From: Gemmatimonadota bacterium
GTDB lineage: Bacteria > Gemmatimonadota > Gemmatimonadetes > Gemmatimonadales > Gemmatimonadaceae
DNA length: 37,260 nucleotides
Direction of reading: 5' to 3'
NCBI GenBank assembly: GCA_026387895.1
Contig: JAPLKT010000062.1
Location: 1-37,260 of the forward strand
Below, piece after piece: positions 13,352-26,476 of the stretch (position 1 is its first letter; each line of letters begins with the position of its first letter). Position numbers and translations under genes: made by a program. Below the pieces are notes generated by a model. That model did not search any database. It was not told where the DNA came from and saw nothing but the letters and a program-made list of their open reading frames with translations.

Positions 13352-13437
13352 GGAGGGCTGCGCCGAATTGGTAAGGCAGCGGTCTTGAAAACCGCCGCGG
13401 TGAAAGCCGCTTACAGGTTCGAGTCCTGTGCCCTCCG
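13352..13437 (+). tRNA. tRNA-Ser (anticodon TGA)
   Basis: An 86-base class II tRNA. The acceptor stem GGAGGGC pairs perfectly with GCCCTCC, with G as discriminator. The anticodon stem is gcggt/accgc with loop cttgaaa, anticodon TGA at 13386-13388. A long variable arm (about cgcggtgaaagccgc) and a T arm acagg-ttcgagt-cctgt follow. The long variable arm and anticodon identify serine. The 3' CCA is not encoded. Confidence 0.95.
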
Positions 13438-13509
13438 CTCCGCCGCCAGGTCATCGACGGCGGCGCTACAGAGGCACTACAGAAGCATTGGAGCACTAGC
13501 AGGTGTTGG

Positions 13510-13600
13510 GGAGCGATGGCCGAGAGGCTGAAGGCACCGGTTTGCTAAACCGACATACGGGTTTACGCCTGTATCGAGGGTTCGAATCCCTCTCGCTCCG
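13510..13600 (+). tRNA. tRNA-Ser (anticodon GCT)
   Basis: A 91-base class II tRNA. The acceptor stem GGAGCGA pairs with TCGCTCC, with G as discriminator. The anticodon loop ttgctaa carries GCT at 13544-13546; the outermost pair of the anticodon stem is a C-A mismatch. A long variable arm (atacgggtttacgcctgtat) and a canonical T arm (gaggg-ttcgaat-ccctc) are present. It reads AGC/AGU serine codons. It lies 72 bases after the other tRNA-Ser, probably in one transcript. CCA is not encoded. Confidence 0.95.
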
Positions 13601-13721: not shown

Positions 13722-15206
13722 ATGAGTGCCTCACACAGCGTTGCCTCCGGTTCTCCTGTTCGCGTCCGATTTGCCCCGTCACCGACGGGCTACCTGCATG
13801 TCGGCGGCGCGCGGACCGCGCTCTTCAACTGGCTCTTTGCGCGCAAACTCGGCGGCAAGTTTCTGCTCCGCATTGAGGATACCGACAAGGCGCGGAGCAC
13901 GGACGAAAGCACGGCTGCAATCTTCGAAGGGCTCACCTGGCTCGGCCTTCAGTGGGACGAAGAGGTGGTGTATCAGGGCGGGAACCTTGAGCGCCATCGC
14001 CGCGACGCCAACGCGATGCTCGAGCGCGGACTCGCGTATCGCTGCTTCTGCACGCCGGCTGAACTCGACGAACGCCGCAAATCCGCCGAACGCGCCAAGA
14101 CCGCATTCAAGTACGACCGCCGCTGCGATCGGCTCGACAAGGACGACCTCGCGCGCCGTATAGCGGCCGGCGAGCCCTCGGTGGTGCGCTTTCGCGTTGC
14201 TGACGGGGCCACGGCGTGGCATGATCTCGTGCACGAGACGATCAGCTTTCCGAATAAGGACATCGAGGATTTCGTCATCCTCCGCTCGGACGGCACGCCA
14301 ATCTACAACATGGCGGTGGTGTCAGACGACATCGCGATGGGGATCACCCACGTGATGCGCGGCGACGATCATATCTCCAACACCCCCAAGCAGATTCTGC
14401 TGTACCAAGCCCTTGGTGCGTCGCTCCCCGTGTTCGCGCACTTCCCCATGATCCACGGACTCGACGGCAAGAAGCTCTCGAAGCGCCATGGCGCGACTGC
14501 GGTCGCAGACTATCAGCACCTCGGGATTCTCCCCGAAGCGATGAACAACTTCCTCGCGCTGATGGGCTGGAGCCCGGGCGGAGATCTCGAGGTGATGACG
14601 CGCGACGACATGATCGAGCGCTTCTCCACAGACCACCTGCTTCGCAAAGCGAGCGTCTTCGACACCAAGAAGCTCGAGTGGATGAACGGCCAGCATTTGT
14701 CGCGTCTCACGGGCGATGCACTCGTCGCAGCCATGACGCCGTCGTTTATCGCCGCCGGTCTCTTTGCCGACGCCGCCGCCGTACAGGCGGTGCACGACTG
14801 GTTCGCCACCGTGCTGGAAGACTGCAAGGAGCGCGCGCGCACTACCGATCAGCTGGTGGAGCTCGCACGCCCGTTCTTCCCAGGCCAGCCGCTCGTCATC
14901 GACACGGCTGCAGCAGCGAAGCATTGGGCCGATCCCGCTCAAGCGATGGAGTGGCTGCAGGCCGTACGTGCACACCTCGCTGCGTTGACCGATTGGACTG
15001 ATGCCAGCATCGAAGCCGACCTCAAGGCGCTCGCCACCGAACTCGGCGTTGGCGCCTCCCCGCTCTTCCAGGCCACTCGCATTGCCGTCACTGGGCGCGG
15101 CGTCGGCATCAGCATCACCAAGACGATCTTCCGCGTGGGACGTGAGGTCTCGCTCGCCAACATCGACAGTGCACTGACGCACCTTGCGGAGCAATCGGCC
15201 GCGTGA
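13722..15206 (+). CDS. gltX: Glutamate--tRNA ligase
   Basis: This 494-residue class I synthetase charges tRNA-Glu, and in bacteria lacking GlnRS also tRNA-Gln. The N-terminal motif is RFAPSPTGYLHVGGARTALFNW, with the HIGH-equivalent at 24-28. The KMSKS-equivalent is KLSKR at 251-255 in GKKLSKRHGATAV. The anticodon-binding region follows and ends with ATRIAVTGRGVGISI, typical of GltX. The start at 13722 leaves a 10-residue lead before the conserved core. The stop overlaps the next gene's GTG by 4 bases. A 17-base palindrome lies upstream. Discriminating versus non-discriminating type cannot be told by eye. Confidence 0.96.
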   Translation: MSASHSVASGSPVRVRFAPSPTGYLHVGGARTALFNWLFARKLGGKFLLRIEDTDKARSTDESTAAIFEGLTWLGLQWDEEVVYQGGNLERHRRDANAMLERGLAYRCFCTPAELDERRKSAERAKTAFKYDRRCDRLDKDDLARRIAAGEPSVVRFRVADGATAWHDLVHETISFPNKDIEDFVILRSDGTPIYNMAVVSDDIAMGITHVMRGDDHISNTPKQILLYQALGASLPVFAHFPMIHGLDGKKLSKRHGATAVADYQHLGILPEAMNNFLALMGWSPGGDLEVMTRDDMIERFSTDHLLRKASVFDTKKLEWMNGQHLSRLTGDALVAAMTPSFIAAGLFADAAAVQAVHDWFATVLEDCKERARTTDQLVELARPFFPGQPLVIDTAAAAKHWADPAQAMEWLQAVRAHLAALTDWTDASIEADLKALATELGVGASPLFQATRIAVTGRGVGISITKTIFRVGREVSLANIDSALTHLAEQSAA

Positions 15207-15874
15207 TCCGCACTCCGCTCACCCTAATCGAGGAGCAGGTCTACCATTTCCTCCTCGATTTCCTCGCCGAACGCACCTTTCAGCCGAGTGTGCGAGAGAT
15301 CGCCGAACGGTTCAAGATTGCGAGCACCAAATCGGTGGCGGACCTGCTCGCGTCGCTCGAGCGAAAGGGGTATATCGAGCGCGAGCCGGGGCATTCGCGC
15401 GGAGTGACGTTGCTGGGCTTTGCCGGTGGCGCAGGGACGGTGCCCGTTCCCGTGATGCGCCCTGACGGTGAACAGCGCGCGATGATCGACGACGGGTTCC
15501 TGACCATCGACCGCACGCTGTTGCGCGCAAGCGATGCCTTCATCACCCGCGCCTTTCCCGAGGGAACGGCAGAGGCCGGCGTGCTCGAAGGTGACTTGTT
15601 GATTGTGCATCCGTCCGAACGTGCCCGTGACGGCGACGCACTCGTGGTGCGCATTGGCGGCGCGATTCTCGTGCGCGGCATGCAGCGAATGGGAAGCAAT
15701 ATTCGACTGATGCCCTCGGGCTATCGCGAGGCGATCGAACTCGGACCGAACGACGACTACGCGGTGCTCGGCGTACTCGGCGGGGTCATCCGGAGCAACA
15801 CGCGCAGCGAGTTCAGCGGCGAGTTCAGCGGCGAGTTCAGCGGCGAGTTCAGCGGCGAGTTTAGCGGCGAGTAG
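15203..15874 (+). CDS. LexA-like transcriptional regulator lacking the self-cleavage residues
   Basis: A 223-residue protein with the LexA layout. The N-terminal winged helix covers residues 1-68 (LTLIEEQVYHFLLDFLAER ... SVREIAERFKIASTKSVADL). A peptidase-S24-like domain follows at about 78-198, ending DDYAVLGVLGGVIR. Aligned by eye to LexA, the three hallmarks are replaced: the Ala-Gly cleavage bond becomes Asp-Gly in MRPDGE, the catalytic Ser becomes Gly121 in FPEGTAEAGVLEGDLLIV, and the catalytic Lys becomes Arg158 in ILVRGM. It is therefore probably not inactivated by RecA-stimulated self-cleavage. The last 21 residues are five GEFS-type repeats from a 12-base tandem repeat. It overlaps gltX by 4 bases (GTGA), an unusual partner. 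The genome's true SOS repressor may lie elsewhere. Confidence 0.8.
   Translation: MIRTPLTLIEEQVYHFLLDFLAERTFQPSVREIAERFKIASTKSVADLLASLERKGYIEREPGHSRGVTLLGFAGGAGTVPVPVMRPDGEQRAMIDDGFLTIDRTLLRASDAFITRAFPEGTAEAGVLEGDLLIVHPSERARDGDALVVRIGGAILVRGMQRMGSNIRLMPSGYREAIELGPNDDYAVLGVLGGVIRSNTRSEFSGEFSGEFSGEFSGEFSGE
15809..15868 (+). repeat. 12-base tandem repeat, five units, at the 3' end of the LexA-like gene
   Basis: Five adjacent copies of gagttcagcggc are present; the fifth differs by one base (gagtttagcggc). They encode Glu-Phe-Ser-Gly repeated to the C terminus, just before the stop codon. The near-identity of the units implies recent expansion by slippage or unequal exchange, and copy-number change would keep the frame. 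Confidence 0.95.
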
Positions 15875-17434: not shown

Positions 17435-19999
17435 TTACCCTGAAGTGGTTGAAAGGGTCGTCCCGTAAAATACGCGCAACTGCTCAAGTATGATGGCCCA
17501 CCCTCCCTCGATGCGGCGAGCCGGTGGCAACCCGGCTAGTAGCGCTCTGCCATACGACTTGCGCACGACTCGAGGGTCACAGATCACCACCACCCCGTGG
17601 TCGGTCGCTGTGCGGATGAGTCGACCAAACCCTTGCTTGAGCCGCAACGCGGCGTGCGGCACCATATACTCGCCAAACGAATCGCCCCCCGCGCCATCGA
17701 TTGCTTCGCACTGCGCAGCTGTGACAGGCTCCGAGGGCACACGAAAGGGGATTTTGCCAAGGACGAGCCCGCGAAGCGCGCGCCCTGGCACATCGACCCC
17801 TTCCCAGAACGAGGCGGTGCCAATGAGCACCGCGTCGCCGTGCTCGCGGAATCGGCGGAGCAACGCATCGCGCGTGTCCTCGCCGTGCACCAGCAAGGGG
17901 TGCTGCGACTCAATCCCCAAGGCACGCATTGCCTGCGCCGCCTCGCGCACATCGCGATGGCTCGTGAACAGCACAAAGACCCCGCCGCCCGACACCTCCA
18001 CGAGATCCGCTGCCACTTGAACGGTCCGCCGGAAGTGAACCTTTGCGTCTTCGTTCGGCGCCGGAAAATCCGTCGGAATCGCAAGAATCGCCTGGGTCGC
18101 GTAATCAAAGGGCGACGGCAGCGACGCGGTCACAGGCTCGACGTCCTCTTGATCCAGGCCGAGGCGTCGACTCACAAAATCAAAGGCCTCACCCACAGCA
18201 AGCGTCGCACTGGTCACCACGCATGTTTCGAGCCGACGGAACAGGTCCTCTCGCAACAGCGGCGCCATGTCGAGCGGGACACTCGCGAGCGCAACGTTGC
18301 GATCGAGACGATCTCCTTCCTCCGCCGTATTCTCACTTTGCCGGCGACGCGAATCCGTCCGCGCTTCGATCCACCGCACCAGCTTGTCGGCGTCCTTCCC
18401 GGGCCGCAGCGCCATCCGCATTCCGTCGGCGGCATTGCCAAGCCGGCGCGTCACCCCGCGAATCTCATTCAGCAGTGGCGCAAGCTCCTCGGCGCGGCGT
18501 TCATCGGTCTCCAAACGCTCGCGAACCATCACGAGTCCTTCCGCAAGCAGTTCGATCTCGCGAAGCACATCGTCGAGCGACGCACTGAGCCCAGCGCGCC
18601 ACACGGGTTCGTCGTCGAACGCCGGCGTAAGGCGCACCTGTTGCTCGCTCCGCGCATGCATCCATTCGTCGAGAATGTCGAAAAGGCGCATCCCCAACTC
18701 CCGCGCGGTGGCTGCAGCAGGTACGAGACGCGCCCGCACGAGATCTAAGCTTGCCACGCTCAGGAGGTCGTCCGCCGCGACAAGCTTGCGCTCGAGCGAA
18801 TGGAGCAGCCCCTTGCCATTGCGATCCAGACGCGCGAAGAGTCGCTGCACGCCGCGGCGCGTGACCGTTTGCCCGAGATGCGAACTCGCCGCGTCCTCGA
18901 GATGATGCCCTTCGTCAATCACGAGTCGCGTGTAGGCAGGGAGTACGGCGGACTCAGCCCAGTTCCCCGAGGCGCGCCGCACGGCGACATCCGCCATAAG
19001 CAGGTGATGGTTCACCACGACGATGTCTGCCTGCGCGGCGAGTTTCCGTGCAGTGAACACAAAACACTTCTCGAAATACGGACACCGAAGTCGTGTGCAC
19101 AGGTCCGGCTCTGCGGCGACTTCGTCCCAGACATCCGTACGCGGTGCGACTAAGAGGTCCGCAGTCGAGCCATCGCGCGTTTTGTCGGCCCATGATGCGA
19201 GCGCGTCGAGCTCCGCGGCCGCTCCGGTATCGAACAACGAAGCACCTGCTGCTCGCGCCTGCTCGAGCCGCTGCAGGCATAAATAGTTCCGCCACCCCTT
19301 GAGCAGCGCGAAACGCACGGGCTGATCGCTCAGCGCTTCGGCGAGGAAGGGCAAGTCTTTTCCCACCAACTGCTCCTGCAGCGTGATGGTCGCCGTTGAG
19401 ACGATCGTGCGCTCCCCGTTCGCCGCTGCCCAGCGCAACGCGGGCACGAGATAGCCGAGCGATTTTCCAACACCGGTGCCGGCTTCAATCAACCCGATGC
19501 CGCCGCGCGAGTACAGCTTGCTCACGCGACGCGCCATCTCGCGCTGACTCGGCCGGTCTTCGTAACGTCCGAGCGCTGCCGCAATGGGTCCGTCAGGGCC
19601 AAGCAAATCCGCGACGTCATCGGGATTGATCTCGATTACCGGCTGCTCGCGCGGGACCTCGACCACGACGTACAGGTCAGTGGCCGCGTTGTCAATAATC
19701 CCGAAGCCGATGCCGTCGCCGTGCACGCGCACCGCGATTTCGAGATCTGGCCCGGAGGGCTGCAGGATTCCCGACGGATGATTGTGCACCAGCATTTCGC
19801 CGCGCTGCGCAAAGCCGGGGAGTGCGAGAACGCTCGAGATATCACCACGCGCAACGGGGCGCGCGCCGGTAATGATGCCCTGTTCGTTTACCGTACAGGC
19901 AAAGCAGACCTCATTCCCGCCTGCGAGCGAAATAGCGGCCCGCATGGCGCGCGCCGGTCCCTGGGCAATCCGTGCGACAGGAGTGACCGTATCGCTCAC
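17435..19999 (-). CDS. DinG-family FeS helicase with N-terminal RadC/JAB (JAMM) domain
   Basis: An 854-residue fusion. Residues about 15-115 form a RadC-like JAB domain with a complete JAMM signature: HNHPSGILQPSGPD gives HxH (72-74), seven residues, Ser82 and Asp85. Residues about 140-854 are an XPD/DinG superfamily 2 helicase: Walker A EAGTGVGKSLGYL (174-180), four FeS-type cysteines (one in NYLCLQRL, three in CTRLRCPYFEKC), the VNHHLL motif, a DEGH box (VIDEGHHLEDAA) and the C-terminal QGFGRLIRT motif VI. It likely unwinds DNA 5' to 3', as DinG does. The start is the GTG at 19999, which overlaps the upstream stop (GTGA). The open frame to 20152 lies inside the previous gene and is not used. 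Many DinG proteins carry an exonuclease or nothing at this place; here a JAMM domain sits there. Confidence 0.9.
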   Translation of the reverse strand: MSDTVTPVARIAQGPARAMRAAISLAGGNEVCFACTVNEQGIITGARPVARGDISSVLALPGFAQRGEMLVHNHPSGILQPSGPDLEIAVRVHGDGIGFGIIDNAATDLYVVVEVPREQPVIEINPDDVADLLGPDGPIAAALGRYEDRPSQREMARRVSKLYSRGGIGLIEAGTGVGKSLGYLVPALRWAAANGERTIVSTATITLQEQLVGKDLPFLAEALSDQPVRFALLKGWRNYLCLQRLEQARAAGASLFDTGAAAELDALASWADKTRDGSTADLLVAPRTDVWDEVAAEPDLCTRLRCPYFEKCFVFTARKLAAQADIVVVNHHLLMADVAVRRASGNWAESAVLPAYTRLVIDEGHHLEDAASSHLGQTVTRRGVQRLFARLDRNGKGLLHSLERKLVAADDLLSVASLDLVRARLVPAAATARELGMRLFDILDEWMHARSEQQVRLTPAFDDEPVWRAGLSASLDDVLREIELLAEGLVMVRERLETDERRAEELAPLLNEIRGVTRRLGNAADGMRMALRPGKDADKLVRWIEARTDSRRRQSENTAEEGDRLDRNVALASVPLDMAPLLREDLFRRLETCVVTSATLAVGEAFDFVSRRLGLDQEDVEPVTASLPSPFDYATQAILAIPTDFPAPNEDAKVHFRRTVQVAADLVEVSGGGVFVLFTSHRDVREAAQAMRALGIESQHPLLVHGEDTRDALLRRFREHGDAVLIGTASFWEGVDVPGRALRGLVLGKIPFRVPSEPVTAAQCEAIDGAGGDSFGEYMVPHAALRLKQGFGRLIRTATDHGVVVICDPRVVRKSYGRALLAGLPPARRIEGGWAIILEQLRVFYGTTLSTTSG

Positions 20000-21276
20000 G
20001 TCTTGAGCGGCTTCTTTTTGGCGGCCGGGAACAACACGTTGTTCAGAATCAACCGGTAGCCGGGCGAGTTGGGATGCAGGGCAAGGTCGGTCGGCGCCGC
20101 ACCGATGTTGTGTTGCGGATCTTCGGGGTCGTGACCGCCCAGGTAGGTCCAAGAACCCTTGCCATAGTCACCGTGGATGTACTTCACCCATGGTGCACCC
20201 TCCTCTGTGGCGAGAATGGTCACCCCCGGCTTGAGCACGGCTTTTGCAAACGAGGTCGTGACCCCGTAATAGTCGGGGATGATCTTGCGGTGGTCTTGCA
20301 ACAGCATGGTCGCAACCGGATCGAACTTTGCCGAGAAGCCGAACAGGGTGAACTGTCCCAACGGCTGCCGACGGGCGGGCACGTTGACTTGGTGCCCGTC
20401 GATGTCGCTCATGGCGTTCACGCCGGGCGACATCTCGAGGTGCACATTCTGAAACGCGAAGGTGTGGATCCAATCCATCTTGGAATCCGCATCGGCGTCC
20501 ATGGGCGTGCCATCCGAGTAGGGGCCCGCGATATCGACGTTCTGCGCGCCCATCGCGAGTTCAATGGTCTCGGTTGCGCCGCACATCGCAAAGAGAAAAC
20601 CGCCCTTCTCCACAAACTCCCGTAGCTTCCCTGCGACCGCCTTCTTGACCGCGGGAACATTGGGGAGACCGTTCCGCTGCGCGGTTCCCATATCGCGGTC
20701 GCGCTGTTCAATGAACCACGGCGTGTCGCGGAAGCCGAGGTACAGCTTGTTCATCTGCCCCGTGAAGTCTTCGTGGTGCAGATGGATCCAGTCGTACTTG
20801 GTGAGGTCGCTCTTGAGCACCTCGTCGTCCCAAATCTGGGTGGACTCGATGCCGGCATAGTTCAACGCGAGCGTCACCGCATCATCCCAGGGGGGCGACT
20901 TCGGCGGGGAGTAAATCGCAATGCGTGGCGCCTTCTCGAGCGCCACGGCGTCCATGTTACCGGCAGCGATTTCCTTACGGATTCCGGCGAGGGTCGCGTC
21001 GGACATCGACTCCACGGTGATTCCGTCGAGTGCGGCTTTGCGCCGCAATGCGGGATCCTCAGGAAGCAGGAAGGCTCCACCACGGTAGTTCAGAAACCAC
21101 TCCGTCTTGGTTCCCGTTTTCAACGCGGTGAACGCGAGTCCATACGCCTTCAGATGGTTTGCTTGGATGTCATCCATTGGCACGAGCATGTGCTGCGCGC
21201 CAACAGTCGCGGTCGCACTACCAAGGAGTAGAACGGCGACGGCGAGGCGGTGGAGGATTGAACGACGACGGGTCAT
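19996..21276 (-). CDS. Secreted amidotransferase-like protein ('asparagine synthetase B-like' family)
   Basis: A 426-residue exported protein: signal peptide MTRRRSILHRLAVAVLLLGS with probable cleavage at VGA before QHM. The mature N terminus HMLVPMDDIQANHLKAYG followed by WFLNYRGGAFLL is the signature of a family I recall from Bacteroidota and Gemmatimonadota, often annotated 'asparagine synthetase B'. I see no AsnB synthetase domain. The middle looks like a class I glutamine-amidotransferase/ThuA-like fold: YDWIHLHHEDFTG (167-173) and a candidate nucleophile elbow FAMCGATET with Cys232. The C terminus has YIHGDYGKGSWTYLGGHDPED. The activity is unknown. It overlaps the TPR gene upstream (ATGA) and the JAB-helicase downstream (GTGA). 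Confidence 0.8.
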   Translation of the reverse strand: MTRRRSILHRLAVAVLLLGSATATVGAQHMLVPMDDIQANHLKAYGLAFTALKTGTKTEWFLNYRGGAFLLPEDPALRRKAALDGITVESMSDATLAGIRKEIAAGNMDAVALEKAPRIAIYSPPKSPPWDDAVTLALNYAGIESTQIWDDEVLKSDLTKYDWIHLHHEDFTGQMNKLYLGFRDTPWFIEQRDRDMGTAQRNGLPNVPAVKKAVAGKLREFVEKGGFLFAMCGATETIELAMGAQNVDIAGPYSDGTPMDADADSKMDWIHTFAFQNVHLEMSPGVNAMSDIDGHQVNVPARRQPLGQFTLFGFSAKFDPVATMLLQDHRKIIPDYYGVTTSFAKAVLKPGVTILATEEGAPWVKYIHGDYGKGSWTYLGGHDPEDPQHNIGAAPTDLALHPNSPGYRLILNNVLFPAAKKKPLKT

Positions 21277-22979
21277 ACCGTGGCTCCAGGGCGAGCGAGA
21301 TCGAGTTCACGTCGTGCCTGTGGCACGAGTGCGCTCTGCGGATACGTGAGAATCAAATGTTCGAGTCGGTCCACTGCGCCTGCCGCGTCGCCTTTGCGAC
21401 GCAACGCGCGCGCCCATTCCAAATCTGACTCCGCCGCTTCCGGCGCAGTCGCGTGGTGCTGCACAATCCGCTGCCACAGTGCGATTGCCAGTGCGTCCCC
21501 TCGACGCGCGGCGTGGATACGGGCCGCGAGGGCGAGCAGCAGGGGAGCGGCATCGACGACCTCGTCGGCGGCGCGTTCGAAGCGCTGCGCCGCTTGCGCG
21601 GAGTCGTTGCGGGCGAGTGCCATGAACGCGGCGCCAATCGCACGCGAGCTATCGGCCTTCGTGCGCCCCAGCAACGCCATGGCATTCAGGACCTCGGGTG
21701 TGACGTCCGCTGGGTGCCGCAGTCCATTGCGCGCTTTCACGAGATCACCGTCGTACAGCGCAATCCAGGCGGTCACTTCATCCTCATCTTCGCCGGTGGC
21801 TTGGGTGAGGGCAACGCGGGCCTTGTCGATCTGGCCGTTCCGAATCCAGGCCCACGCGACCACACGGGCATAGCTCTTGACGACGGCAGGATCGAGTTGT
21901 GGGGCGTTGGCCGCGAGGCGCGCCTCAACGTCGCGCGCACGACCGAGCTGACTCAGCGCCTTCAACTCGAGCGGGAGCAGCTGAGCGCGCGCGGCGATGG
22001 CAGGAAGGAGCGTGCCCCCTGTGGCGATGAACGCGAGCGCCGCGTTCGGCTCACCGGCATTGAGTGCGGCAGTCGCGGCGCGCACGGCAACTGGACCAGA
22101 TGGACGCGCAGCAAGCATGGCGGCGAGTGCGTCGCGCGCCGGCGCCCAGGCGGTTGCACGCTCGGCGTCTGACGCGAAGTCGCTCCAGGTATCGAACGCA
22201 GAATCGGCCGGAGCGAGCGTGGCGAAAGCGCGCCATGCCTCACGCGGCTGCCCCCACCCCATCTCGAGGAGGCCCAAGGTCTTGCGCACCGGCATCGGGG
22301 CCGGACTGACACGCAGAATGGCACGAATCGAGTCCCGCTTGTCTGTTGGCGCGGGCTGGAGCGAGTACTGCGCCGCCTGCTCGAGATAACCCTCATTGGC
22401 CAACGCCTCGCGCCAGGCAAAGGCGGCTTCGGTCCAAAGGCCAAGCCCTGCGCGCAACTGCGCGACTTCGATGCGCAGTTCCTTCGTGCTTCCGAGAGAC
22501 TTCGTAGCCTCTTGAAGAATCGTATCCGCCAGCGCCGCGCGCCCATCCATGAGCAGCTGGCCCGCGAACTCCCGATACGGTGTCGGGTCGTGCGGTTGTG
22601 CACGCACCCACTCGTTGAACGCGTCACGCGCGTCCTTGTCGCGGGCGACGGCGCGCAACACGCGGAGCTGCGAGCCCCGCAGCATGCGATCCGTGGGACG
22701 CTGCCGGACGAGCGTATCGAGCGCCACCAACACGCTGTCGTCTTGCGCGAGCTGTGAGAACACGCGCTCAAGCCCGAGCACGCCCTGCCCCGGTTGCCCC
22801 GCACTAATGACTGCGCGCCAGGCCGTCACGGCGTCGCGCCATTTCCCGGCGTTCTCAAAATCGATGGCGCGTTGAATCAGCTGATCCTGCGCCTGCGCAC
22901 AGCCCACGGCGGGATGCGCCGCGATCGCCACGCACGCACTCATCGCCAGCGCGCGCACGAAGCTCCCCACAGTGATCAC
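21273..22979 (-). CDS. Exported tetratricopeptide-repeat-like protein
   Basis: A 568-residue protein made almost entirely of Ala-rich helical hairpins in TPR style. Examples are LIQRAIDFENAGKWRDAVTAWRAV near the N terminus and RALRRKGDAAGAVDRLEHLILTYPQSALVPQARRELDLA at the C terminus. The N terminus VITVGSFVRALAMSACVAIAAH is a signal peptide. Cleavage could be after AQA, or the protein could be a lipoprotein through PAVGC. The GTG start overlaps the DUF4175 stop by 4 bases and the stop overlaps the next ATG by 4 bases. By context it is probably a periplasmic scaffold working with the DUF4175 and amidotransferase-like proteins, which is inference. Confidence 0.8.
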   Translation of the reverse strand: MITVGSFVRALAMSACVAIAAHPAVGCAQAQDQLIQRAIDFENAGKWRDAVTAWRAVISAGQPGQGVLGLERVFSQLAQDDSVLVALDTLVRQRPTDRMLRGSQLRVLRAVARDKDARDAFNEWVRAQPHDPTPYREFAGQLLMDGRAALADTILQEATKSLGSTKELRIEVAQLRAGLGLWTEAAFAWREALANEGYLEQAAQYSLQPAPTDKRDSIRAILRVSPAPMPVRKTLGLLEMGWGQPREAWRAFATLAPADSAFDTWSDFASDAERATAWAPARDALAAMLAARPSGPVAVRAATAALNAGEPNAALAFIATGGTLLPAIAARAQLLPLELKALSQLGRARDVEARLAANAPQLDPAVVKSYARVVAWAWIRNGQIDKARVALTQATGEDEDEVTAWIALYDGDLVKARNGLRHPADVTPEVLNAMALLGRTKADSSRAIGAAFMALARNDSAQAAQRFERAADEVVDAAPLLLALAARIHAARRGDALAIALWQRIVQHHATAPEAAESDLEWARALRRKGDAAGAVDRLEHLILTYPQSALVPQARRELDLARPGATV

Positions 22980-25900
22980 GGCTTGTCGCCGTTCAGTCGG
23001 CGGAAGTACTCAATCACTAATCGACGCTCTTCGTTGCTCAAACCACGCAACTCGTTCCACTCAGGCACGCGATACTTGAGCGCGGCCTTCCCGGCGGCGT
23101 TCGCCGTGGGCGGGACAAACGGATTGTTCTGATCTCCAGGCTTCGACTCGCGCCGCGAAGACTCGTCCTTCTGGTCGTTTTCGAGCGTCCGGCCAGCGTC
23201 CAGCATCCGCTTGAACAAGCGCTGCTGCCGTTCCAGAACTGTTGGGTCTGCCGCTCCCTGCTCCAGCGACTGCGCGAGCTGTCGTGCTTCGCGCGCCAAC
23301 TCAGAGGCCTTGCCCGACGCATCCGCGTCACCCACGTCGTCGAGCTTACGCGCTACGTCGCGCTGCGTGCGCGCGAGGTCCTTGGCCAGCGCTTGTCCTT
23401 CGGGGGACATCTGCTGCCCCTGTTTCTGCTGCTGAATCGCGTTCTGCAGGAAACTCTGCATCTGTCCGTTCAATGATCCCTGCTGCCGCGCCAGCTGCTG
23501 CAGCTGCGCCAGCAACTCCGGGAGCCCGCTCGCTGACTGCGAGTTTCCAGCGCGCTCGCGATCACGCGTGAGCGACGCAGCCGCTTGGCGCAACGCGTCG
23601 GCGGCGTCAGACATCGTGCCACTGGCCTGTGAGGCGCTCCGCTGGTCTGAGGCGTCCTTTGTCGCCTGCTCCACCTTTTGTTCGGCGTCACTCACGGCCT
23701 TCTGCGATTTCGGCGACACCAGCGCCGAGCGTTTGGATTGGCTATTGAGCCGTTCCGAGGCCTTCTGCACGCCTTGGGCAAGTGCACTTTGTTCGGAGCG
23801 TAACGAAGGATCGGTGGGATTCTGTTTGGCTTTATTCGCCAGCGCATCCTGCTGACGCGCGAGCTGCAGCATCTCCTGCACCGAGCGATCGAGCTCGCCT
23901 GTCACTTCCTGCTTCCACTCTTCGACCTGCGCCTTGCGCCCATCGGAGAGCGCCTGCGCGGCAGCGTCCATAGCATCGGCGGCTTCGCGAGCCGCATCCG
24001 AGCCCTGCCCCTTCTGCCCCGGTTGTCCTTGCTGACCTTTCTGCCCCTGTTGTCCTTGTTGCCCCTTCTGTCCTTGCTGGCCTTGCTGGCCTTGCTGGCC
24101 CTGTTGCCCCTGCTGGCCCTGCTGGCCCTGCTGGCCCTTTTGCCCACTCTGGTTCTGCTGTTGTCCTTGGGGCGATCCCTTGCTGTCCTTGGGCTGCGCC
24201 TTGTCGTCGCCGGGCTGACCTTTCTCGCCAGACTTCTCGCCAGACTTTTCCCCAGCTTGCTCACGCTCCATCGCGCTCTGGGCCTTCATCGCTTCCTCAA
24301 GCGCGCGCTGCGCGTCCTTGGCCGCGGTGTCAGCATTCTCCTTCTTCAAACGATCCTTGAGCGCCTCGATGTCCTTGGCAAGCTGCGCAGTCCGATCCTG
24401 CATGCGCTTGTTGGCATCGGGGCCGTCCTTGGCGCCGGAGTCCGCGAGCGCACGCTGCTGCTTCGCCAGCTCCTTCGCTTCGTCACGCAACGTTTGCATG
24501 GCGCCTTCAAGCGCTGCACGCTTCAGAATCTCGGCGCTCTTCTCCAATGCCTCGCGCATCTTTTTCTGCTGATCCGCCATCTGTTGCAACGACGCCTTCG
24601 ACTGATCTTGCGACAGATTCTGCGTGGCGTTGTCGAGCTTCTTGAGCGCCTCCATCATCTCGGGCGTCAGTGCCTCGCGCAACAATCGCTGGGCCTCACG
24701 CAGCTGCCCCGCCATCGCGGTATCGAGCACGCCAGCGGCGCGCATCCGATCCTCGAGGGCCTTGGACGTTTGCTGCAACTGTTGCACGCGCTCGGCCATC
24801 GCCTTCTGTTCCGCGGCGAGCGCTTTCGCCTGCTGCGCCCCCTCGTACTTCATCGCATTTGGCTGCCCGGCCTTTGAGGCATCCTCCGGCTTTGCTGTGC
24901 GCTGATTGGCCGCGTCAGACGTGCGCTGTTGCAACTGCTGCATGGCTTTTGCGGCTGCCGCTGCACGGGCCGCCGCCGAGTCAGCAGCGGAACGCGCAGC
25001 CGAGCGCTGCTCTTCGGTCGCGGGAATGCGAAGCACGAGTTCGCGGCTTACTCCTTCTTGCCCGCCAGGCGACTCGTCGCGCGCCACGAGCTGGACGTGC
25101 ACCCCGTCGCCGGCCCCAAGGCCGAACGGGGTCAAGTCCATCATCAGCGTGCCGCTCCAATCCGGATTCCCACCACCCCCGACCTTCTGCACGTTCGGCG
25201 TGTTCGCACGGCCATCACGCGTCACGCGCCAAACTTTGAGCGACACCGACGCCAAGGCGTGGTCATCGCTCGCCACGAGTTCCAGTTCAATCTTGTCGGT
25301 CGCTTGCACCAGGCTATCGCTCCCAGGGGAGAGAATCTCTGCCACCGGCGCCGAGTCGGGTAGCACCTCGAGCACGAGTGGGGCCGGCACATCCGCGATC
25401 ACAGTGGTGCGGCCGCGCGCGCTCCAGCTCCACGTGCCACTCGTCATCGGCGTCATACGACCACTGAATCGCCGGTCCTCACTTGCGAGCGCCACGGTCT
25501 CGGTGCCGTTCGACAGAGCCACGGCCGCCAAGGGTTCCGACGCATGTCCCTCGATCGTCAGCAAAGTGCCGCGCGGGAGCCGCAACGGCGCATCGGCCAC
25601 CAACGTCTCCGGCGCGCGGCGCAGGTAGGCGGGATACGTCGCACGAATGGCCACATCGCCCACGAACGGACGGTCCACCACGCGCACCACCACCGTATCA
25701 CTGAGCGCACGCCCGTCCGTCGCCACCAGCGTCAGGTCCGCGTCGAGCGGCCCGAACTCGACCTTGGCCTCGCCGTGCTCCACCGCAATCGGCGTCTCCG
25801 ACCAGGCATTGCCTGTCGTCCGACGGCGCAGCACTAGCGCGCTGCGCCCGACGGCACGAATCGTGAAACGCACGGTACTCCCGCGCTGCGCTCGACTCGG

Positions 25901-26476
25901 CGCGCCAGGAATCTCGATCCGCGACAACAACGTCCCGCGCCACGCGTCCACGGGATGCACGAGTGCGGCCCATCCGTCGCGCCGCGACGTCGCTCCTATC
26001 ACAAGCGCGAGCAACACGGGAACAAGCATCGCACCCGCACGGAACGCCCGGGTGCGCAACTGCCGCTCGAGCGCCGGCGCAAGCACCGCTCCGCCCCGAT
26101 TCAACCGCTCCGCCAACTTGTGCTCAGCCACGCGCACAAAAATGCTGCGATCCTCGGCCAGCTCCACGACGCCGCGCACCGCACCGTCGCGCAAGGACTG
26201 TTCCCGCTCCACTGCCGCCGCGACCGCGGGAAGCGACGACATCGCGCGAGCCGTGCGCGCTCCAAAACGCGCCACCAGCCACGCCGCAATCACCACAACG
26301 GTCCACACCGCAAAGGGGACGAACCTCGGCAGTGCAATCCACCGCGCGCCCCCGAGTACCTGAACACCCAGCACAAGAATCGCCGCTGCCGCAGTGAGGA
26401 CCGCCACGGAGGTGCCCGCATGCGCCAACCGGAGCACGCGCGCACGTTCGCGGATCAGAATATCGATCAAGCTCAT
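22976..26476 (-). CDS. DUF4175-family giant membrane-anchored coiled-coil protein
   Basis: A protein of 1166 residues. Hydrophobic segments lie at about 24-42, 52-70 and 147-161. Residues about 185-480 look like beta-rich periplasmic Ig/cadherin-like domains (for example IEIPGAPSRAQRGSTVRF, AIRATYPAYLRRAPE and IELELVASDDHALASVSLKV). From about 490 to 750 and 830 to 1090 it is long Gln/Ala/Lys/Glu coiled coil. Between them sits a Gly-Gln-Gln repeat (778-824). The C terminus KYRVPEWNELRG ... RRLVIEYFRRL resembles a terminal motif common in related envelope proteins. The whole layout matches DUF4175. The biochemical role is unknown. It is coupled by 4-base overlaps to DUF4159 upstream and the TPR gene downstream. 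Confidence 0.88.
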   Translation of the reverse strand: MSLIDILIRERARVLRLAHAGTSVAVLTAAAAILVLGVQVLGGARWIALPRFVPFAVWTVVVIAAWLVARFGARTARAMSSLPAVAAAVEREQSLRDGAVRGVVELAEDRSIFVRVAEHKLAERLNRGGAVLAPALERQLRTRAFRAGAMLVPVLLALVIGATSRRDGWAALVHPVDAWRGTLLSRIEIPGAPSRAQRGSTVRFTIRAVGRSALVLRRRTTGNAWSETPIAVEHGEAKVEFGPLDADLTLVATDGRALSDTVVVRVVDRPFVGDVAIRATYPAYLRRAPETLVADAPLRLPRGTLLTIEGHASEPLAAVALSNGTETVALASEDRRFSGRMTPMTSGTWSWSARGRTTVIADVPAPLVLEVLPDSAPVAEILSPGSDSLVQATDKIELELVASDDHALASVSLKVWRVTRDGRANTPNVQKVGGGGNPDWSGTLMMDLTPFGLGAGDGVHVQLVARDESPGGQEGVSRELVLRIPATEEQRSAARSAADSAAARAAAAAKAMQQLQQRTSDAANQRTAKPEDASKAGQPNAMKYEGAQQAKALAAEQKAMAERVQQLQQTSKALEDRMRAAGVLDTAMAGQLREAQRLLREALTPEMMEALKKLDNATQNLSQDQSKASLQQMADQQKKMREALEKSAEILKRAALEGAMQTLRDEAKELAKQQRALADSGAKDGPDANKRMQDRTAQLAKDIEALKDRLKKENADTAAKDAQRALEEAMKAQSAMEREQAGEKSGEKSGEKGQPGDDKAQPKDSKGSPQGQQQNQSGQKGQQGQQGQQGQQGQQGQQGQQGQKGQQGQQGQKGQQGQPGQKGQGSDAAREAADAMDAAAQALSDGRKAQVEEWKQEVTGELDRSVQEMLQLARQQDALANKAKQNPTDPSLRSEQSALAQGVQKASERLNSQSKRSALVSPKSQKAVSDAEQKVEQATKDASDQRSASQASGTMSDAADALRQAAASLTRDRERAGNSQSASGLPELLAQLQQLARQQGSLNGQMQSFLQNAIQQQKQGQQMSPEGQALAKDLARTQRDVARKLDDVGDADASGKASELAREARQLAQSLEQGAADPTVLERQQRLFKRMLDAGRTLENDQKDESSRRESKPGDQNNPFVPPTANAAGKAALKYRVPEWNELRGLSNEERRLVIEYFRRLNGDKP
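24005..24145 (-). repeat. 9-base Gly-Gln-Gln/Lys coding repeat inside the DUF4175 gene
   Basis: About 15 near-identical 9-base units, seen on the plus strand as variants of ctggccctg, ctggccttg and ttgtccttg. Read on the minus strand they encode GQQ or GQK repeated through residues 778-824. Synonymous variation between units shows the array is older than the 12-base repeats elsewhere in the window. It gives a flexible or collagen-like polar linker between two coiled-coil blocks. The opposite strand reads as poly-Leu, which is only a shadow. Confidence 0.9.

Follow-up and report, generated by a model that had tools for sequence, protein, structure and literature searches.

The window, as the whole 37,260-nucleotide stretch of Gemmatimonadota DNA analysed here is called, encodes on its minus strand a protein of 854 residues (17435..19999, GTG start) that joins a JAB domain to an XPD/DinG-type FeS helicase and is almost certainly a RadC-like DinG. 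Judged from genome sequences, this fusion is conserved in most of the Gemmatimonadota as a core gene passed on vertically, with its metal site kept almost everywhere. The architecture itself is not new, since it was named by Cheng (PMC11981726) and noted earlier by Iyer and colleagues (PMC5512222). New here are its status as a core gene in the phylum, at least three losses of the JAB domain in place, and one genus with a destroyed metal site. The first-pass annotation had proposed the fusion for study as a distinct repair or defence enzyme; the fusion is real and its metal site is intact, but the claim of distinctness gives way to these earlier descriptions.

The gene starts with a GTG at 19999, which overlaps the stop codon of the upstream gene (GTGA), and ends with its own stop at 17435. 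A 905-residue version of the frame opens with a TTG at 20152; because the GTG start overlaps the upstream stop codon, this TTG is probably not the true start. The upstream neighbour (19996..21276, minus strand), conserved and linked by the translational overlap, encodes a protein that appears to be secreted and matches no Pfam family; it is given as context only.

The N-terminal RadC-like JAB domain (19655..19972, minus strand; residues ~10-115) contains the JAMM signature HNHPSGILQPSGPD (19743..19786 to within a codon, minus strand) at residues 72-85, where the first-pass annotation had placed a complete JAMM motif. The catalytic Glu, which had been left unnamed, is E30, within the stretch GGNEVCF. 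Together with H72, H74, S82, and D85, it completes the pentad E...HxH-x7-S-x2-D within a predicted JAB fold, which is the JAMM/MPN+ pattern. Thus, the Glu and metal ligands whose absence would have spoken against the domain are in place, and the predicted fold is indeed that of a JAB domain. Characterised JAMM peptidases use the complete pentad, Ser included. On its own the bare pattern HxH-x7-S-x2-D is weak: a six-frame translation of the window contains it 2 more times by chance. Conservation and the predicted fold carry the case. The Pfam RadC model (PF04002; gathering cut-off 22.1 bits) gives 20.3 bits on the whole 905-residue frame and 26.4 bits on the isolated domain, and it matches all 15 members of set A1 at E <= 0.1. 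The N-terminal domain matches no exonuclease family; it is predicted to have a JAB fold instead of the 3'-5' exonuclease fold found in ExoDinG.

Structure prediction points the same way. An AlphaFold2 model of residues 1-146 alone (pLDDT 91.0) has the following order of elements: helix-strand-strand-(helix)-strand(HNH)-helix-strand-strand. A Foldseek search of the PDB with this model returns RadC of Chlorobium tepidum (2qlc) as the top match (E 1.3e-4), followed by JAB1/MPN proteins; all five matches with E < 0.001 are RadC chains of 2qlc. With VIA-align, Rpn11 is best (Z 9.5, 3.1 Å over 106 residues), CSN5, PfJAMM1, and BRCC36 follow at Z ~8-9, and RadC 2qlc aligns at Z 7.8 (3.4 Å over 101 residues). 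Taken singly these Z values are middling, and their weight lies in the consistency of the family. The predicted fold thus matches JAB/MPN+ metalloproteases and RadC. Like RadC, the domain has the HNHPSG...PS..D signature, although it scores only 20-26 bits on the RadC model; a stand-alone RadC is encoded elsewhere in the same genome as a separate frame of 234 residues (C132:2935-3294). Like the JAMM/MPN+ peptidases, it has the full E/HxH/S/D set. Unlike them, it is more compact, and because ~110 residues of the model align to a span of ~136 residues in Rpn11, insertions the size of the eukaryotic Ins-1 and Ins-2 appear to be absent from this domain.

The remainder of the protein (17435..19654, minus strand; residues ~116-854) is a linker and a YoaA/DinG-type helicase. 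Walker A (EAGTGVGKS) lies at residues 172-180, the four FeS cysteines are intact at residues 241, 301, 306, and 312, and motif VI (QGFGRLIR) is found at residues ~789-796, so that the XPD/DinG helicase is complete in these motifs, as had been proposed. The DEGH box that was also proposed is present as DEGHH (residues 362-366), though it varies between DEGHH and DEAHH among homologues. Pfam Helicase_C_2 scores 146.7 bits; NCBIfam YoaA (NF053712) scores 563 bits over residues 182-882 of the 905-residue frame, below its equivalog cut-off of 680. The AlphaFold2 model of the whole protein (pLDDT 85.5) contains the elements of a YoaA-like core: FeS, Arch, MD1, MD2, and a C-terminal helix (834-852). 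The helicase part of the model aligns to DinG, ExoDinG, CasDinG, and XPD from residue ~123-128 onward, with E. coli DinG (6fwr) as the best Foldseek match. Because the alignment begins there, the JAB domain sits in the slot taken by the exonuclease in S. aureus DinG. FeS cysteine 1 (C241) is replaced by serine (SCCC versus CCCC) in L145-L149, L153, and L155-L157, which come from Gemmatimonadota sampled outside the order of the window and include proteins with and without an intact JAB domain.

Several relatives share parts of this architecture. E. coli YoaA and DinG have the FeS helicase core and lack the N-terminal JAB domain. ExoDinG (S. aureus DinG, 8zef/9ii8) likewise has an extra domain before MD1, but there it is a 3'-5' exonuclease accompanied by a pseudo-FeS domain, in contrast to the JAB domain and four intact cysteines of the window protein. 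The closest description is that of Cheng (2025, PMC11981726), who divided DinG into ten subgroups, one of them RadC-like DinG. In section 3.8 of that paper, a model of the Desulfuromonas soudanensis protein places zinc at E/H/H/D, and a DALI comparison is described as giving metalloproteases, not nucleases. Its text also states that RadC-like DinG had been the subject of no research, gives a host without HolC as a trait of the subgroup, and calls the subgroup highly conserved on the basis of one representative strain per order (PMC11981726). The window protein has the same plan: an N-terminal RadC-like JAB domain with E, H, H, and D, followed by MD1/FeS/Arch/MD2 of the YoaA type. The main text of that paper does not name Gemmatimonadota, and the loss and pseudo-JAB forms are described here. 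Iyer and colleagues argue that the JAB domains of RadC lack the groove for a ubiquitin tail and may process nucleic acids (PMC5512222).

Across the window and 20 genomes of its order, E30, H72, H74, S82, D85, K179, and C241/C301/C306/C312 are invariant. H72, H74, S82, D85, and the four cysteines are present in all 64 full-length homologues (the window protein and 63 from public assemblies), and E30 in 63 of 63, the remaining row having been trimmed short by the choice of start. The JAB domain has not evolved faster than the helicase: its mean distance is 0.283, against 0.343 for the helicase. Distances in the two parts are correlated (Mantel r 0.65, 0 of 999 permutations), as expected for a fusion that is inherited as a unit.

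Of 395 genomes in the phylum sample, 345 match a profile of the fused JAB domain at E <= 0.001, 47 of them weakly (E between about 1e-6 and 1e-3) and presumably through plain RadC. Strong matches (E <= 7e-12) make up the remaining 298, about three quarters of the sample, a count that includes two degenerate JAB copies and some frames cut by contig ends. Helicase_C_2 is matched in 36 of 41 close genomes and never more than once per genome, and the window protein is the sole member of this XPD/DinG family detected in its host genome. Strong matches in three quarters of the sample, with at most one helicase locus, argue that the fusion is vertically inherited, class-wide, and chromosomal. In the tested genomes of families f7 and f9, the helicase is absent as well. 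A search of public genome contigs gave 279 matches, of which the best 80 are titled Gemmatimonadota except for two with other or unspecific labels (L087 and L108); the distribution beyond the phylum rests on Cheng 2025 (PMC11981726). L108 is titled Phycisphaerales, and its fusion gene is nested within Gemmatimonadota sequences in the tree. It is probably a contig or genome under the wrong phylum label rather than a case of transfer.

The JAB domain has been lost or has decayed in some lineages. In genera g5, g22, and g24 of the window's own family, and in G063 and G093 of family f5, the helicase is found at the corresponding locus and the JAB domain is gone. On the helicase tree, the loss label needs 4 changes, of which at least 3 are required by branches with good support. 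The exact placement of G063 and G093, both of them long branches, is unsure. Because intact or decayed JAB domains lie deep on both sides, the direction appears to be loss rather than gain. Since the helicase is retained in all of these lineages, the JAB domain is not needed for helicase function, and the repeated losses indicate that whatever it does is dispensable in some lineages. In one further genus (G131 and G143; proteins L153 and L156), the JAB domain is recognisable and its metal ligands are gone: the HNHPSG stretch has become LSQESG or ISHQSE, and E30 has become R or S. Persistence of the domain without its ligands suggests a structural role there at least, and this degenerate form can be likened to the pseudo-exonuclease of pExoDinG. 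In L157 (G093), the frame upstream of the helicase codes for a long charged stretch of unassigned nature instead of the JAB domain, possibly a replacement N-terminal module.

These features suggest a chromosomal housekeeping helicase in which a small metal-dependent hydrolase domain would fill the N-terminal slot that holds an exonuclease in other DinG proteins. To judge from DinG and SaDinG (PMC12345164), the helicase part would load on single-stranded DNA and move 5' to 3'; family knowledge suggests that it would work at gaps, stalled forks, or R-loops. The JAB domain may bind one zinc, with E30 as a possible general base and S82 as a possible oxyanion residue, and might then act as an amide hydrolase, cutting a peptide or isopeptide bond of a protein that the helicase meets or unfolds on DNA. 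The parts of this proposal differ in strength. A catalytic role as a hydrolase is likely for the JAB domain, in preference to a structural one; that its substrate is a protein is a tentative assignment; and the proposal as a whole, a RadC-like DinG with a zinc-hydrolase JAB domain that acts on protein, is plausible though somewhat short of probable. Literature searches for a biochemical activity of RadC or of a RadC-type JAB domain found none. Amide hydrolysis of a protein on DNA is preferred because the peptidase pentad is kept, Ser included, and because of an analogy with vertebrate FANCJ and SPRTN. An editorial reports that the 5'-3' FeS helicase FANCJ unfolds DNA-protein crosslinks before the protease SPRTN acts (PMC10175854). 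The likeness, an XPD-family FeS helicase with 5'-3' polarity that works ahead of a protease, is an analogy only: FANCJ and SPRTN are two separate proteins, and the SPRTN protease is of the SprT type, not JAB.

The main rival, which we consider unlikely, is that the JAB domain is a nuclease or a nucleotide-processing enzyme, trimming the strand exposed by the helicase as the ExoDinG exonuclease would. The position of the domain equals that of this exonuclease (PMC12345164), and the argument of Iyer and colleagues, built on RadC fusions and the missing ubiquitin groove, favours the same reading (PMC5512222). So does the compactness of a domain from which the eukaryotic-type insertions are apparently absent, but the kept Ser belongs to an amidase pentad. 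To our knowledge, no JAB-fold protein has a known nuclease activity, which also counts against this rival. The DALI comparison, as Cheng's text presents it, found no similarity to nucleases (PMC11981726).

Rather unlikely as well is a second rival, in which the JAB domain tunes the helicase as a module that binds DNA, a nucleotide, or a partner protein, with little or no catalysis of its own. The genus of G131 and G143, where the domain is recognisable without its metal site, and the repeated loss of the whole domain are in keeping with such a role, for which pExoDinG, as described in Cheng's text, offers a precedent (PMC11981726). A module of this kind is hard to square with catalytic residues that do not vary among the aligned full-length homologues (64, with E30 in 63 of 63) and with a JAB domain under no less constraint than the helicase.

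An extension of the preferred reading, amide hydrolysis of a protein on DNA, would be a DNA-protein crosslink machine in one polypeptide, in which the 5'-3' FeS helicase would pull on or unfold the protein and the N-terminal JAMM protease would cut it, in convergence with FANCJ plus SPRTN. This is a doubtful possibility; if true, it would provide the first activity for the RadC family. RadC is widespread and takes its name from DNA repair. We know of no agreed function for it, and what activity RadC-type JAB domains have is an old question. Here one such domain is physically tethered to single-stranded DNA through the helicase to which it is fused, whose polarity is known, and the question becomes testable in one purified protein. 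The locus occurs in three natural forms (intact, metal-dead, and without the JAB domain) that can be compared with one another.

Gene order marks the locus as housekeeping DNA with conserved synteny. Across the order, and with some gaps, the neighbours are constant: genes for DUF4175 and TPR proteins, the apparently secreted protein, and the RadC-like DinG gene, with an FAH-family enzyme, a TonB-like protein, lexA, and gltX in the same run; a DUF4159 gene is also among the neighbours in the window. Type IV CRISPR DinG and phage RadC proteins are precedents for a role in defence or on mobile elements, and the typeIV_DinG models of PADLOC do match the helicase (431 bits). The match spans the shared helicase only, and a protein of defence or of a mobile element, a role that the first-pass annotation had entertained, is highly improbable given the order-wide synteny and neighbours such as gltX, lexA, and the genes for the FAH-family enzyme and DUF4175/DUF4159 proteins. 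No cas family match, and so no type IV-A cas gene, was seen among the scanned neighbour proteins. A search of the plasmid collection gave no match, a phage search gave one weak match (28% identity) without a detected helicase fusion, and matches in viral contigs were stand-alone RadC-like or polyvalent proteins in which no helicase fusion was detected. An origin from a phage or plasmid was rejected on these grounds. A scan of the host genome for a ubiquitin-like system gave one strong ThiF match and no Prok-JAB match above the cut-off.

An assembly or frameshift artefact fusing two genes, for which one could cite the 154 contigs of the 2.85 Mb host assembly and the weak, partial Pfam RadC match, has virtually no chance of being right, because relatives carry the same unbroken fused frame, both in most sampled genomes of the phylum and in independent public assemblies. 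The frame of 854 residues runs uninterrupted through JAB domain and helicase, which form one polypeptide as first described, and the search for a separate JAB gene in close relatives, the sign of a frameshift in the window, turned up no split gene.

Some smaller features of the neighbourhood were also recorded. The end of lexA (15203-15874, plus strand) contains a 12-base tandem repeat in 5.5 copies (15807-15872) that encodes a C-terminal (EFSG)n tail; the length of this tail varies, since in L033, a near relative, it is shorter and made of slightly different (EFSS) repeats. The gene for the DUF4175 protein (22976-26476, minus strand) has 9/27-base tandem repeats at 24005-24160, a stretch that Pfam scores as collagen-like. 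Two adjacent tRNA-Ser genes with TGA and GCT anticodons (13352-13600, plus strand) lie upstream of gltX-lexA, and gltX shares a few bases with lexA.
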